From the NCBI GenBank assembly GCA_011056835.1, contig DSDU01000046.1, forward strand, positions 1 to 34,111: a stretch of DNA of 34,111 bases. The letters run 5' to 3'. Below the pieces are notes generated by a model, which worked only from the letters and a program-made list of their open reading frames with translations, had not been told where the DNA came from and made no database searches. Numbering within the stretch: the stretch's first letter is position 1; the number at the start of each line of letters is the position of its first letter. This document shows positions 18,318 through 30,687 of the stretch, piece after piece. The DNA comes from Deltaproteobacteria bacterium. Lineage in GTDB: Bacteria > Desulfobacterota > Syntrophia > Syntrophales > UBA6807. The position numbers and the translations under genes were made by a program.

Positions 18318-18599
18318 CTATTTCTTCGAATTGACTCTCTCTTTGAGTTCTTTACCTACCTTGAAGAACGGTAATTTCTTGGGGGCAACCTGAATGGTCC
18401 CACCTGTTTTCGGATTTCGTCCCGTGTAAGACCCATAATCCCTCACGACAAAACTCCCGAATCCCCGTATCTCTATTCGACCGCCATTCTTTAGTTCCTC
18501 GGTAAATCCTTTGAATATCAGATTCACAACATCGGTCGCTTGTCTTTCCGTCAGATTTTCCTTTTTACTCAACGCATCGATTAATTCGGATTTATTCAT
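18318..18599 (-). CDS. Integration host factor / HU-like DNA-binding protein
   Basis: A 93-aa DNA-bending histone-like protein. It begins MNKSELIDALSKKENL and contains RGFGSFVVRDYGSYTGRNPKTG, the beta-arm with the conserved RNP motif that inserts into the minor groove. GSF-x-x-R and the length suggest an IHF-type subunit rather than plain HU, but alpha or beta cannot be assigned. The start at 18599 is preferred; the frame opens to 18638 with unconserved residues. The leader contains a run of eight G directly before the start (18602-18609 on the complementary strand), which serves as the ribosome site. A strong terminator follows about 185 bases downstream. Confidence 0.93.
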   Translation of the reverse strand: MNKSELIDALSKKENLTERQATDVVNLIFKGFTEELKNGGRIEIRGFGSFVVRDYGSYTGRNPKTGGTIQVAPKKLPFFKVGKELKERVNSKK

Positions 18600-18611
18600 A
18601 AACCCCCCCCT

Positions 18612-18638
18612 TACATAACTGATTAATATATATGTCAA
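18612..18638 (-). promoter_or_regulatory. Possible sigma-70 promoter for the IHF-like gene
   Basis: A perfect TTGACA (complement of 18633-18638) lies 15 bases before TATGTA (complement of 18612-18617), just upstream of the IHF-like start at 18599. The spacing is short and the -10 match is partial, so this is a weak call. The transcript leader would be extremely short. Confidence 0.3.
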
Positions 18639-21962: not shown

Positions 21963-22235
21963 TTACTTTACCTTGTCGGTCAGTCCTTTTCCCGGTTTGA
22001 ATTTAACAACCTTCTTGGCCTTGATTTTGATTTTATCTCCCGTTTGAGGATTTCTGCCGGTTCTGGCTTTTCGCTTAACAACCGAGAACGTTCCGAACCC
22101 CACTAATCCCAGTTTGCCGTTTTTCTTGAGCTCCGTCGTCACCGTTTTAACGTAAGAGTCCAGCACCTTTGCCGCTGCGGCTTTCGAAATGTCAGCATCC
22201 TTTGCCATTACTGCAATCAGTTCCGCTTTTGTCAT
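21963..22235 (-). CDS. HU-type DNA-binding protein
   Basis: A 90-aa histone-like nucleoid protein. The start MTKAELIAVMAKDADISKAAAAKVLD, the GFGTFSVVKRKARTGRNPQTG arm with the minor-groove proline, and the lysine-rich end KIKAKKVVKFKPGKGL are all typical of HU. It is monocistronic: its own terminator follows, and the next gene upstream is divergent. A GGGGG stretch lies nine bases before the ATG. It is clearly distinct from the IHF-like protein at 18318-18599, so this organism has at least two family members in this region. Confidence 0.95.
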   Translation of the reverse strand: MTKAELIAVMAKDADISKAAAAKVLDSYVKTVTTELKKNGKLGLVGFGTFSVVKRKARTGRNPQTGDKIKIKAKKVVKFKPGKGLTDKVK

Positions 22236-22563: not shown

Positions 22564-23490
22564 ATGAAAAACCGCACTAAGCTCCGGGACAAAATAGTCG
22601 GCTGGATAAAGCTGTCGAGACTCCCATTTCATACCGTAGGAGTTCTTCCTTTCATACTCGGGACCCTCGTGGCATGGAAGATAGACGGTATATTCGTTTT
22701 CTCTGTTTTTTCAATCGGCGTCACGGCGGTTATCCTTACTATGCTTGCCACATACCAGGCAGGAGAATATTTCGATTATCACGAAGACACGATTTCAAAA
22801 TCCATATTTAAAAGTCGATTTGCCGGGGGATCGGGAGTGATTCAAGAAGGCACCGTGTCCCGTATCGTCCCGCTGAAAATCAGTGTTGCCGCTCTTATGG
22901 CCGCTGCCGGCATCGGATTATTCCTTCAGTTCTTTCTAAAGACAGGACCCTACACGATTCTACTCGGTGCTCTCGGTCTCTTCGGAGGATTCTTTTATTC
23001 GACGAAACCGGTTCGACTCGTGGACAGGGGGATTGGAGAGCTTGTGATAGGATTCTGTTACGGTTGGCTTCCCATCGCTTCCGCTTACTATATTCAGACA
23101 GGATATATACACCAGATTATATACTGGGTTTCCGTGCCCATCGGTATGACTATATTTAATGTCATTCTTCTCAACGAGTTTCTCGATTACCCCGGCGACA
23201 CGGCAGTTGGAAAGAAAAACCTTCTCGTCCGATTCGGAAAGAGACACGGCGCATATCTCTATGCTGCAGTATCGTTCTGTGCCTGGATATCCGTCGTTCT
23301 CTCACTGAACGCAGGTATTCATTATCGTGTGCTCTACGGCTATCTACCGATCATTTTCCTTTCAGCATTCATTGTCGGAGCGATCCTGAAAGGTAAGTAC
23401 GAAAATTATCAAACACTTGAGATCCTGTGCGGCTTCAACATTGTTGTAAACCTGGGAACGAACGGCTCGTTTATGCTCGCATTACTATAA
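22564..23490 (+). CDS. UbiA-family prenyltransferase
   Basis: A polytopic membrane enzyme of 308 aa with about eight to nine hydrophobic segments. UbiA-superfamily enzymes move isoprenoid chains onto aromatic or other acceptors. The first acidic motif reads GEYFDYHEDT (about residues 67-76), where most MenA/UbiA proteins have ND in place of GE; the rest, FAGGSGVIQEG, is typical of a MenA-like subgroup. The second motif is NEFLDYPGDTAVGKKNL (about 204-220). Both metal-binding sites thus keep their aspartates. The acceptor is unknown: a quinone step is possible, but no other men/mqn gene lies here. The radical SAM gene follows 70 bases downstream on the same strand. No clear ribosome site precedes the ATG. 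Confidence 0.85.
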   Translation: MKNRTKLRDKIVGWIKLSRLPFHTVGVLPFILGTLVAWKIDGIFVFSVFSIGVTAVILTMLATYQAGEYFDYHEDTISKSIFKSRFAGGSGVIQEGTVSRIVPLKISVAALMAAAGIGLFLQFFLKTGPYTILLGALGLFGGFFYSTKPVRLVDRGIGELVIGFCYGWLPIASAYYIQTGYIHQIIYWVSVPIGMTIFNVILLNEFLDYPGDTAVGKKNLLVRFGKRHGAYLYAAVSFCAWISVVLSLNAGIHYRVLYGYLPIIFLSAFIVGAILKGKYENYQTLEILCGFNIVVNLGTNGSFMLALL

Positions 23491-23560
23491 GGATCAGGAC
23501 ATCCTCGTATACGCTGTAAAAGAGGAACGACGAACGGATAAGGGAGGGCAAGACATAAGC

Positions 23561-24802
23561 GTGAAAAAAACGAATTCCGGAATACTGCGTCACCATCATC
23601 CAACTCCAAAGCGGGTCAAACCTCCATTCTTGCCGCCGTCACTGCTCTTCAAACAATTAGGAAGTGCTTTGCTGATGGGGTATCTCAACGGCTGGAGAAA
23701 ACTACCCCATTGGTTTATCCATAATGGGTTCAGATCCATTCCCGTGTCAAACGGTGCGCTCGGCATGGGCTGTATCGGCTATCCGGGACATCCTGCGTGG
23801 GAAGTTACATCGACGTGCAACTTGCGCTGTATTCACTGTCATGCGCTAAGCGGCAGGCCGAATCCAAACGACCTGACCACGGATGAAGCAAAAAAATTTA
23901 TTGATGACCTGGCGGAAGTAGAGGAATTCAGGGCTCTCGTATATACAGGGGGAGAGCCTCTGGTCAGGCCGGACATATTTGAACTGCTCAGGCATTCCCG
24001 GGATGTCGGTTTTGCGAATATCATCGCCACAAACGGGACCCTCATTGATGAAGAAATGGCCTTCAAACTGAAGGAGCACGGTGTTGTATGCAACGCCATC
24101 AGTCTTGATGCCGCTGACCGTGATATGCATAACTTTATAAGAAACAGTCCCGTTGTCTTTGATCTGGTTCTACGGGCCATCGAAGCAACCAAAAAAGCGG
24201 GGATTCTTCTTCAGCTGAACGCAACGGCAATGGAAATCACCATGCCGTACCTTTCTGACCTTATCGATTTTGCCGACATGAATGATGCTGCGATCATGCT
24301 TATGTACCAGCTCGTAGCCGTCGGCAGGGGCGAAAAAATAGAAGAGGTGACACTGAAAAAAACAACGAATCAGCAGCTCAGCGATCTCATCGCGTCAAAA
24401 CAAAAAGACATCAGCACCATCGTGGAACCCGTTGCAGGACCGCAATACTGGCCTCACATGCTTGAAGAAAAAGGATGGAATAACAACATATTGCTGAGAA
24501 TCGCGGAAACGGTGTTTCATGGGTGTTCCGCCGGAAGAGGTTTTGTCTATATCAAAGCAAACGGAGATGTCTGGCCGTGCCCGTTCGTTGAAGTTACCGC
24601 AGGAAACGTGCGTCGTATGTCATTTAAAAGAATATATGAAGAATCCGACGTCTTCGTCAATCTGAGGAATCGGGAAGACCGGCTGAAGGGTCGCTGCGGT
24701 GAGTGCCGTTATCGAACACTCTGCGGCGGATGCAGGGGAAGGGCTTGGGCGTACACGGGAGATTACATGGCAGAGGACCCGAGATGCTTTATCAAGAAAT
24801 AG
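23561..24802 (+). CDS. Radical SAM/SPASM protein, AhbD/NirJ-like
   Basis: A 413-aa radical SAM enzyme. The SAM-cluster cysteines are C86, C90 and C93 (CNLRCIHC), with YTGGEPLVRPDIFELL after them. A C-terminal SPASM domain has C322, C340, C379, C382, C388, C391 and C409, enough for auxiliary Fe-S clusters. The CGGCRGRAWAYTGD segment resembles the heme-pathway enzymes AhbC, AhbD and NirJ. The first 75 residues are an unusual basic/hydrophobic extension (two tryptophan-containing stretches near 38-57) that might associate with the membrane. No heme-synthesis gene is nearby, so heme function is not claimed; PqqE-like or other peptide modification is an alternative. GTG start at 23561; GGGAGG lies 13 bases upstream. 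Confidence 0.85.
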   Translation: MKKTNSGILRHHHPTPKRVKPPFLPPSLLFKQLGSALLMGYLNGWRKLPHWFIHNGFRSIPVSNGALGMGCIGYPGHPAWEVTSTCNLRCIHCHALSGRPNPNDLTTDEAKKFIDDLAEVEEFRALVYTGGEPLVRPDIFELLRHSRDVGFANIIATNGTLIDEEMAFKLKEHGVVCNAISLDAADRDMHNFIRNSPVVFDLVLRAIEATKKAGILLQLNATAMEITMPYLSDLIDFADMNDAAIMLMYQLVAVGRGEKIEEVTLKKTTNQQLSDLIASKQKDISTIVEPVAGPQYWPHMLEEKGWNNNILLRIAETVFHGCSAGRGFVYIKANGDVWPCPFVEVTAGNVRRMSFKRIYEESDVFVNLRNREDRLKGRCGECRYRTLCGGCRGRAWAYTGDYMAEDPRCFIKK

Positions 24803-24833: not shown

Positions 24834-24865
24834 CTTTATTTTCTCTTCTTCACGAGAAAATAAAG
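24834..24865. terminator. Hairpin overlapping the mltA 3' end
   Basis: CTTTATTTTCTC (24834-24845) pairs perfectly with GAGAAAATAAAG (24854-24865): a 12-bp stem and 8-base loop between the convergent radical SAM and mltA genes. It includes the last codons and stop of mltA. On the plus strand it is followed by only TTT, so it may end or protect the radical SAM transcript weakly. Confidence 0.5.
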
Positions 24866-26023
24866 TTTGCCTTTCTCCTTCATATGCCCTGCCATAATGC
24901 CTGCGACGTGGCCATTACCGCAGAAGAGATCAACTCTGCCGGGACCTTTGATCGCGCCTCCCGTGTCCTGATTGAGAACAAACCGGGAAAAGGGCTCCCA
25001 TGCCGCGATTGAGCCATCTTCGGTAATAACCGGTTTTTTTGTTTGAATAAACGCCAGCACACCTTTCGGAAACAGTGACGAGTCGGTGGCAATGGACCGT
25101 CCCTCCGTAACGGGAACATTCAAACTTCCCACAGGTCCGTCTTCGACTATGCGGAAGAAAACATAGCTTTCATTATGATTCAATATGTCGGACATTTCTT
25201 CAGGATGCTCTCGAAGGTAGCGCTTGATACTCTTAAGCGACATGTTTTCGGCAGATATTTTTCCACGATCAATCAGGAGCCTGCCCACACTCCGATAGGG
25301 GTGACCGTTCGCCTGGTCATAGCTTATCTGGATATAAGAGCCATCCTGTAATCGTACTACTCCCGATCCCTGTATATGCAGAAAGAAAAGATCGACAGGA
25401 TCGGCCAGCCAGGCAATCTCAAGTCCTCTTCCCATCAGACGGCGTGCCGTATCAATTTCCTCACGGGTATAATACGGCAGGATCTTCCCGTCTTCGTATC
25501 GCGCAATTATCCGCTCTCCCGCATATTTTTCACGGAATACCTCCAGATTGACCACGATATGATCATCAGGTGTCTTGTAAACCGGGTAACGGTATTCCTC
25601 CGTTTCCTCGCGTGACCCATCAAGCACGGGGGCATAATATCCGGTAAACAAAACCCCTCCTACACCGTCACTGCCGACGGATTGATAAATGTCAAATAAC
25701 TCCTCAATCCTCTTACGAAAGGCTTCGGCAGAACCGGAATACCGAATGATGTCGAGAAAAACCAACAGCGATTCTTTGAGTTCAGCAACGGAATAATCCA
25801 CGTTGCCGAATCGACAGAGTCGATCCTCCGGCAGACGATCGAAATACTCCAGACTCCTCAGCACCGCCGGTTCAAGAAGTTTTCTATCAAGATCATCCGC
25901 AAACAAAGGATAATCCCGCGGTAAAATGGGGACAAGCGGCAGTTGCGGTTTCTCAACTGATACGGTGCACCCAAAAAACAGCAAAAACAAACAGAGAAAC
26001 AGGACACCATAACGGGAATTCAT
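24836..26023 (-). CDS. mltA: MltA-type lytic murein transglycosylase, lipoprotein
   Basis: Cleaves peptidoglycan glycan strands to 1,6-anhydro products. The 395-aa protein has a signal peptide with lipobox LFFGC (C19), so it is expected to be anchored to the outer membrane. The MltA domain starts near residue 115 (GVLFTGYYAPVLDGS) and ends with the 3D-type domain carrying the catalytic aspartate at about D365 in GRVDLFCGNG, after QDTGGAIKG. A GGAGTATAGGAG stretch lies just before the ATG. It is 180 bases downstream of the acetyltransferase gene and may or may not belong to that operon. Its last codons form one arm of a hairpin. Confidence 0.94.
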   Translation of the reverse strand: MNSRYGVLFLCLFLLFFGCTVSVEKPQLPLVPILPRDYPLFADDLDRKLLEPAVLRSLEYFDRLPEDRLCRFGNVDYSVAELKESLLVFLDIIRYSGSAEAFRKRIEELFDIYQSVGSDGVGGVLFTGYYAPVLDGSREETEEYRYPVYKTPDDHIVVNLEVFREKYAGERIIARYEDGKILPYYTREEIDTARRLMGRGLEIAWLADPVDLFFLHIQGSGVVRLQDGSYIQISYDQANGHPYRSVGRLLIDRGKISAENMSLKSIKRYLREHPEEMSDILNHNESYVFFRIVEDGPVGSLNVPVTEGRSIATDSSLFPKGVLAFIQTKKPVITEDGSIAAWEPFSRFVLNQDTGGAIKGPGRVDLFCGNGHVAGIMAGHMKEKGKLYFLVKKRK

Positions 26024-29282: not shown

Positions 29283-29547
29283 GATGCGCACCTCTCTCAC
29301 CGCCGCTGATGATTTATCACATTGTCCCATATCCGCGCTTTTGCCAAACACGCCGATTCCCCGTAAGTAACCATTTTATCGAATGATTACGGTGAGAAAA
29401 GACAATCAATCTGTCGGAATATCTATCACAAAACCATAAAGGTGTCTATTTGTAATTCCAAAAGGGCCGGCAATGAGTGTTATGGACTTGACAGGCTTAT
29501 GGAATCTGCGCTACGTAATCTTTCAGCAACGCGACTCGGAAGGAATT

Positions 29548-30687
29548 ATGGGATTACTGAAAGGACCTGTTACGGCAACAAAATATCGCGTCACCGGCAC
29601 TGTACCGGATGACTTCAGAAACTTTGTCGATGAACGGATCAAGCACTTTGCCTTCTCGGGATTATCAACAGGCGAGGCGGAAAAGTCCATAGGGTGGACC
29701 AGCATCGACAATATCCTTGATACCGATTTTTCATACGCCAATTATTCGATTGCCAATTACCTGATTTTCTCACTCAGGATTGATCGGAAGGTTGTTCCCA
29801 CGGCGCTGCTGAAATTAAAAGTCCTCGAAGCGGAAAAGGAGCTGTTGACGCAGCGTAACACCGAGAAAATCTATAAAGCTGAGAGGAATGATCTCAAAGA
29901 CCGGATACATTTGAGTCTTATGAACCAGACACCGCCCATCCCCGCAACGTTCGAGGTCTGCTGGAATGTCTCCGAAGGATGGCTCCTGTTCGGCTCTCTT
30001 TCCGAAAAGGTCAAGGAAGATTTTGTCGATCTCTTTTCAAGAACTTTTAACCTTTCCCTGCGGCCTTTTGTCCCGTGGGATATGAAGTATGCGGACCCCG
30101 TAACAGCCCGTCGTATTGCTTCCATTTTTGACGCCGGTCTTTCCGGCAGCGATCCCATAAAAGGCAGTGAAGACGCAGGGGGCACGGACCTCTCATTTCT
30201 GGGAAGGGATTTCCTGACGTGGCTTTGGTTTAAAAGTGAAGAACGTGGAGGGACTGTTATGGTTCCCGATGTGGGAGATGTGGCGATGCTCTTTGTTCGG
30301 AAACTGATTCTCGAATCGGGTGAAGGTCCCTATTCTGAAACAGTTTCATGTCAGGGAATGCATTCAAATCTGACGGAAGGAAAATCCGCCCTCCGACGTG
30401 GCAAGAAAATCAAAGAGGCGCGGATAAAACTCGCTGTCGGAACCGATGAAACCGAATTCAGCTTCAAGGCCGATACTTTTCAATTTCAGACCTTGAAATT
30501 TCCCCCGTCATTCACCATGGAAGAAGATGAGAACGATCGCGAAGGAAGAATCCTTGAAAGAATATCCATCGTGGAAAAGGGGATCGGGCTTATGGAACAA
30601 CTCTTTGCGTTTTTTCTCAGTAAGCGAACGCTGCCGGCATGGACAAGCGATGAGGTGCCCAGAATGGGCAAGTGGATGCAGGAATGA
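29548..30687 (+). CDS. rdgC: RdgC-like recombination-associated protein
   Basis: E. coli RdgC is a ring-shaped DNA-binding protein that restrains RecA. This protein resembles the family: it begins MGLLKGPVTATKYRV, has KSIGWTSIDNILDTDF (about 45-60), and a middle RIDRKVVPTALLKLKVLEAEKE region. At 379 aa it is somewhat longer than the E. coli form (about 300), mainly from an added C-terminal half. The assignment rests on recalled resemblance and is strong but unproven. ATG 29548 has GGAAGGA just upstream, and the open frame extends back to 29473 without family-like residues. It is divergent from nadK-recN, a DNA-repair context. Confidence 0.75.
   Translation: MGLLKGPVTATKYRVTGTVPDDFRNFVDERIKHFAFSGLSTGEAEKSIGWTSIDNILDTDFSYANYSIANYLIFSLRIDRKVVPTALLKLKVLEAEKELLTQRNTEKIYKAERNDLKDRIHLSLMNQTPPIPATFEVCWNVSEGWLLFGSLSEKVKEDFVDLFSRTFNLSLRPFVPWDMKYADPVTARRIASIFDAGLSGSDPIKGSEDAGGTDLSFLGRDFLTWLWFKSEERGGTVMVPDVGDVAMLFVRKLILESGEGPYSETVSCQGMHSNLTEGKSALRRGKKIKEARIKLAVGTDETEFSFKADTFQFQTLKFPPSFTMEEDENDREGRILERISIVEKGIGLMEQLFAFFLSKRTLPAWTSDEVPRMGKWMQE

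Follow-up and report, generated by a model that had tools for sequence, protein, structure and literature searches.

The window (the whole stretch of DNA that was analysed, 34,111 nucleotides) contained two adjacent genes on the same strand, which encoded a UbiA-superfamily membrane prenyltransferase and a radical SAM/SPASM enzyme and were separated by 70 bp (Table 1). The flanking genes were HU, in divergent orientation, and mltA, in convergent orientation, and both were boundaries outside the unit. This arrangement had been described in an earlier note made from the sequence, and it was borne out by the open reading frame positions and the Pfam matches. The same note regarded the surrounding region as otherwise minus-strand, which was mostly correct; the exceptions were a few other plus-strand genes, such as an RdgC-like gene at 29473-30687 (+) that matched PF04381 at 41.6 bits. 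Two HU-type genes occurred a few kilobases apart (18318-18638 and 21963-22235), and both were kept in the syntenic block of the order. In a promoter scan, the number of sites was not above that of shuffled sequences.

Table 1. Positions of the gene pair, its motifs and domains, and its flanking genes in the window.
Feature	Position	Strand	Details and basis
HU DNA-binding protein gene, divergent, upstream; boundary, outside unit	21963..22235	-	PF00216
UbiA-superfamily membrane prenyltransferase gene, GExxD / NExxDxxxD subfamily	22564..23490	+	308 aa, ATG; PF01040
First Asp-rich motif GEYFDYHED, residues 67-75	22762..22788	+	Alignment of 40 relatives
Second motif NEFLDYPGD...K217, residues 204-217	23173..23214	+	Alignment of 40 relatives
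Radical SAM/SPASM gene, clade apart from AhbC/AhbD/NirJ1/NirJ2	23561..24802	+	413 aa, GTG; Pfam, NCBIfam, trees
N-terminal extension, residues 1-78, two predicted helices	23561..23794	+	Alignment, AF2 secondary structure
Radical SAM cluster motif CX3CX2C (C86, C90, C93)	23816..23839	+	Alignment
SPASM domain, seven cysteines C322, C340, C379, C382, C388, C391, C409	24524..24787	+	Alignment
mltA, convergent, downstream; boundary, outside unit	24836..26023	-	PF03562

The UbiA protein matched PF01040 with 82.5 bits (cut-off 34.2), and its AlphaFold2 model was all-helical with a mean pLDDT of 95.0. The nearest folds in the Foldseek search were DGGGP synthase (6m31), the top match by E-value, and UBIAD1 (8djk). 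The Pfam match, the fold matches and the two Asp-rich motifs placed the protein in the UbiA superfamily. MenA-like models were the best-scoring for this protein, with a best value of 89 bits against a curated MenA cut-off of 277, and the UbiA profile matched chlorophyll synthase distantly. The altered first motif, GEYFDY, which had been noticed earlier, was a property of the whole subfamily and no local oddity. G67-E68-x-x-D71 was invariant in 40/40 aligned members, and N204-E205-x-x-D208-x-x-x-D212 together with K217 was invariant in the same number; both GExxDxxxD and NExxDxxxD were conserved across the alignment. The usual NDxxD was found in most other UbiA proteins of the examined genomes. 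Judging from the alignment, the replacement of Asn-Asp by Gly-Glu would retain the acidic ligands, and UbiA activity is expected.

The second protein matched PF04055 (Radical_SAM) with 86.7 bits (cut-off 29.5) and PF13186 (SPASM) with 39 bits (cut-off 21.5). It possessed both the CX3CX2C motif and the seven-cysteine C-terminal domain of the radical SAM/SPASM superfamily, and all seven cysteines were invariant in a 32-sequence alignment of orthologues, which confirmed the SPASM domain as first described. The N-terminal extension reported with it was also real: about 78 residues preceded the radical SAM core and were conserved in the orthologues, with a start codon uncertain by some 10-15 residues. 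A GMGCIG stretch in this extension was invariant in the orthologue alignment, and its cysteine, Cys71, was specific to the family. An amphipathic membrane helix in the extension was considered and rejected; the hydrophobic moments of its helices were not above those of shuffled sequences in any member (p of about 0.1 upwards). The AlphaFold2 model had a mean pLDDT of 85.9, and its Foldseek neighbours were SPASM enzymes, mostly peptide maturases (SkfB, PqqE, SuiB). As far as the predicted models reach, the fold matches of neither protein named a substrate.

The column of the first AuxI cysteine was occupied by alanine (Ala292) in 34/34 orthologues, as opposed to cysteine in 11/11 AhbD proteins and in 19/19 AhbD and NirJ2 proteins taken together. 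Glu289 was tried as a substitute AuxI ligand and rejected, as AhbD has lysine at that position and the AhbD cysteine aligns with Ala292. The AuxI cluster of CteB has three cysteines (PMC10452713); if that of the window family is analogous, it may have an open iron site.

The relationship of the radical SAM protein with the named families was evaluated by two maximum-likelihood trees and by curated model scores. The orthologues formed one clade (support 98/98 and 100/100), which lay outside AhbD, AhbC, NirJ1 and NirJ2 in both trees and outside the archaeal Gms-like clade in the second. In the second tree, the clade was on the side of AhbD, NirJ2 and TIGR04053 (95/88), but the branch between was short. 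The window protein reached 278.8 bits with the AhbD model TIGR04545 (cut-off 500) and 193 bits with the AhbC model, far below its cut-off of 650; the own genome encoded a true AhbD (559 bits) and a true AhbC (747 bits) above these curated NCBIfam cut-offs. The latter two were encoded on a different contig from the pair, in a heme operon of the ahb type that comprised ccsA, hemA, hemC, a fused methyltransferase/hemD-like gene, ahbC, hemB, ahbD and an ahbA/B-type gene (AhbC and AhbD named by cut-off, the rest by reading of the sequences). The full eight-cysteine SPASM motif is present in AhbD of sulfate reducers and methanogens (PMC10452713), whereas the window protein had seven. Nor was the protein among the AhbC/NirJ1 proteins, which are recognised by a position inside their clade and by the lack of AuxI cysteines. 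A place inside the clade of proven AhbD had been named in the earlier note as an outcome that would speak against its proposal, and the trees, the scores and the separate ahb operon all differed from that outcome. On these sequence grounds, the window protein is judged not to be AhbD.

At 45-73% identity, with the N-terminal extension included, the radical SAM protein had orthologues in 17/60 examined genomes of the order, own genome counted, and in 18/395 genomes sampled from the phylum, a set that overlaps the first. They also occurred in genomes named as Smithella and Syntrophaceae and, outside this phylum, in two genomes of another, here called Acidobacteriota (reached via an Aminicenantes record). 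Synteny and the best matches among records named Smithella and Syntrophaceae suggest a Syntrophales-like position for the window. With each counted once, 32 numbered genomes carried an orthologue. The UbiA gene was immediately upstream and in the same direction in 29 of the 30 genomes with a resolvable locus; G208 and G270 were left out of this number because contig ends cut the locus, and a UbiA fragment was located at the end of another contig in G270. In the exception, G298, the radical SAM gene had no UbiA gene beside it, nor was one found elsewhere at E <= 1e-30. The linked loci spanned many Desulfobacterota families and the two Acidobacteriota genomes, so the absence of conserved linkage, the other adverse outcome named beforehand, did not occur. 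From the UbiA stop to the radical SAM start, many loci had 2-15 bp or an overlap, although the precise start positions were uncertain.

In Smithella-type loci, the upstream housekeeping genes were syntenic, and the downstream genes changed right after the radical SAM gene. Because the gene order breaks at this point in the home lineage, the unit was defined as two genes. In more distant genomes, both flanks differed and the pair persisted. A conserved third gene, for which a search had been proposed, did not emerge, as none was constant across the loci compared. Moreover, no small reading frame was conserved within 800 bp of the pair at 27 loci, where the only small frames to recur were overlapping ones and fragments of HU, TrpS and MltA.

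G045 is a genome of the window's order, but in each of the two gene trees its sequences fell with those of G165 and family f28 and not with their own order. Since both genes shared this placement, the trees indicate that the pair moved as one unit at least once. The two genes are well supported as a functionally coupled pair, and the claim that both proteins act in one pathway gained support from adjacency in two phyla, co-transfer and tight spacing. UbiA genes without a radical SAM gene were detected in G041/G059, G303 and G222, and the own genome had one as its second copy; several of these were nested in the paired clade. Evidently, the UbiA protein can work without its partner, with loss counts that rest on draft genomes. 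The second own copy, a GExxD UbiA without a radical SAM partner (G000:C37, L132: 8601-9557), was probably acquired, since it falls with paired UbiA proteins from other orders (G165 and f28). At another locus (G319:C68, L203: 9353-10112), a UbiA gene was followed by an N-run and an apparent radical SAM remnant, which would be explained by a gap in the assembly or by decay of the partner gene. Neighbourhood conservation alone cannot give the order of the steps. Because several lineages kept UbiA but had no radical SAM gene, and only one genome showed the opposite pattern, we infer with moderate confidence that UbiA acts first and that the radical SAM enzyme adds a step to that of UbiA and does not supply the UbiA acceptor.

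The relation of the pair to quinone biosynthesis was explored in the same genomes. UbiE/MenG exceeded its curated cut-off in 54/60 genomes of the order, with the pair or without it, and MqnC or MenD was present in only about 16/60. This discrepancy points to salvage, to diverged genes or to a quinone route not yet recognised. Of the 17 genomes of the order with the pair, 13 showed neither MqnC nor MenD; the other four carried an MqnC-type gene (G054, G056), MenD (G039) or a MenD fragment (G055). In the own genome, a 99% complete draft, no MenD or MqnC scored over the cut-off, so a recognised source of a DHNA or futalosine-derived head group for MenA was not found there. In G024, G040 and G043, UbiE adjoined another MenA-like UbiA gene. 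The pair therefore probably lies outside the known menaquinone routes.

These data bear on the possibility that the pair belongs to a respiratory quinone route, in which the radical SAM enzyme would build or decarboxylate the aromatic head group, the UbiA enzyme would prenylate it and UbiE would methylate it. The window UbiA protein is nearest the MenA/UBIAD1 kind, the excess of UbiE over MqnC and MenD leaves room for such a route, and UbiE followed the pair directly in G165. However, this adjacency occurred in one genome only, and the own genome had two further MenA-like UbiA genes. Moreover, most UbiE-bearing relatives were without the pair, and therefore the pair cannot be a general quinone route. 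We consider a respiratory quinone route improbable, although it is the strongest of the alternatives. The proposal that the pathway acts on a prenylated quinone or other lipid was accordingly upheld for the single pathway and not demonstrated for the prenylated quinone; most pair-bearing relatives were without the known menaquinone routes.

AhbD, the heme b synthase that decarboxylates Fe-coproporphyrin III, and NirJ act on heme-like propionate side chains, and heme O synthase and chlorophyll synthase prenylate the ring. A tetrapyrrole could thus be the substrate, with the radical SAM enzyme modifying a heme-like propionate side chain and the UbiA enzyme prenylating the ring. Among named families, AhbD and NirJ2 came closest to the radical SAM protein, the own genome makes ahb intermediates, and the distant match with chlorophyll synthase would fit. 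Nevertheless, the position outside the four heme-related clades, the alanine in place of the AuxI cysteine of AhbD, and the preference of the UbiA protein for MenA-like models argue against this substrate, and no tetrapyrrole gene was linked at the loci compared. Hence, a tetrapyrrole pathway appears quite improbable, clearly more so than a quinone route.

The archaeal GMGT synthase Gms likewise belongs to the SPASM radical SAM enzymes, carries added helices at its N terminus and acts on an isoprenoid lipid (PMC11186832). On this model, the radical SAM enzyme of the pair would cross-link or cyclise the isoprenoid chains of a lipid made with the UbiA enzyme, and the common architecture and the match of the UbiA model with DGGGP synthase are consistent with such a reaction. 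In contrast, the AuxI cluster of Gms has four cysteines (PMC11186832), one of which is replaced in the window family. The archaeal Gms-like clade was not sister to the window family, and the N-terminal parts were unrelated by profile comparison (probability 0.2%). Kinship with Gms was rejected on the tree and this comparison, in which Gms-like archaeal proteins picked by architecture stood in for the published Gms sequence. A Gms-like reaction is marginally less probable than tetrapyrrole modification. A SPASM radical SAM family in archaeal genomes (L229, L239-L268) was widespread, measured 460-520 residues, had a cysteine-bearing N-terminal domain that resembles the Gms description, and sometimes occurred as two copies per genome.

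Many SPASM enzymes mature ribosomal peptides, and the Foldseek neighbours were mostly of that type, but maturation of such a peptide, with the UbiA enzyme as a bystander or peptide prenylator, is very improbable since no precursor frame was conserved within 800 bp at the 27 loci and the UbiA linkage was too constant for a bystander.

The preferred reading is that the two genes form one transcription unit for two consecutive steps of an uncharacterised anaerobic membrane-lipid pathway, a proposal for which we consider the chances evenly balanced. Very probably, the pair makes an unfamiliar membrane molecule outside the heme and known menaquinone pathways, and the product is most likely a membrane compound that is prenylated and then completed by radical chemistry. 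The UbiA enzyme, on the basis of its family, its fold and its metal-binding motifs, which are intact in a GE variant, would condense a polyprenyl diphosphate with a membrane acceptor. The SPASM radical SAM enzyme, whose cluster motifs are intact, may then take a hydrogen from the prenylated product or its head group and complete an oxidative tailoring step, in which the auxiliary clusters would take up the electron. More specifically, the product could tentatively be a new prenylated membrane cofactor or lipid of syntrophic and other anaerobes, made through a GExxD UbiA and an enzyme of a new SPASM family whose three-cysteine AuxI cluster is open, which we consider possible but somewhat doubtful.

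Both enzymes belong to well-studied superfamilies. The pair had not been recognised as characterised when first noticed, and no description of it was found in the literature searched, which included work on UbiA with radical SAM and on the quinones of Syntrophus/Smithella and in which subscription papers were mostly beyond reach. Syntrophic bacteria grow at the thermodynamic limit, and little is known of the electron carriers in their membranes. Among relatives that carry the pair, many encode UbiE yet show no recognised quinone route, and the conserved pair points to a membrane compound that the annotated pathways do not explain.

The window UbiA subfamily has the fold of MenA/UBIAD1 (TM 0.70 to UBIAD1) and retains the second motif NExxDxxxD with its lysine, whereas the first motif is NDxxD in MenA/UBIAD1 and GExxD in every member of the window subfamily; unlike MenA, the subfamily occurs in genomes mostly without MenD or MqnC. 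The radical SAM protein resembles AhbD in the radical SAM and SPASM layout, CX3CX2C, the C-terminal CX2CX5CX2CX17C and about 33-36% identity over the core, but differs in the 78-residue N-terminal extension with the invariant Cys71 and in adjoining a UbiA gene rather than heme genes. NirJ2 (TIGR04055, 269 bits, cut-off 500) and TIGR04053 (249 bits, cut-off 395) formed clades separate from the window family, and NirJ2 retains the AuxI cysteine that is alanine in the window family. The main text of the Gms paper mentions no UbiA protein (PMC11186832), and in the second tree the window family and the Gms-like archaeal proteins were separate lineages.
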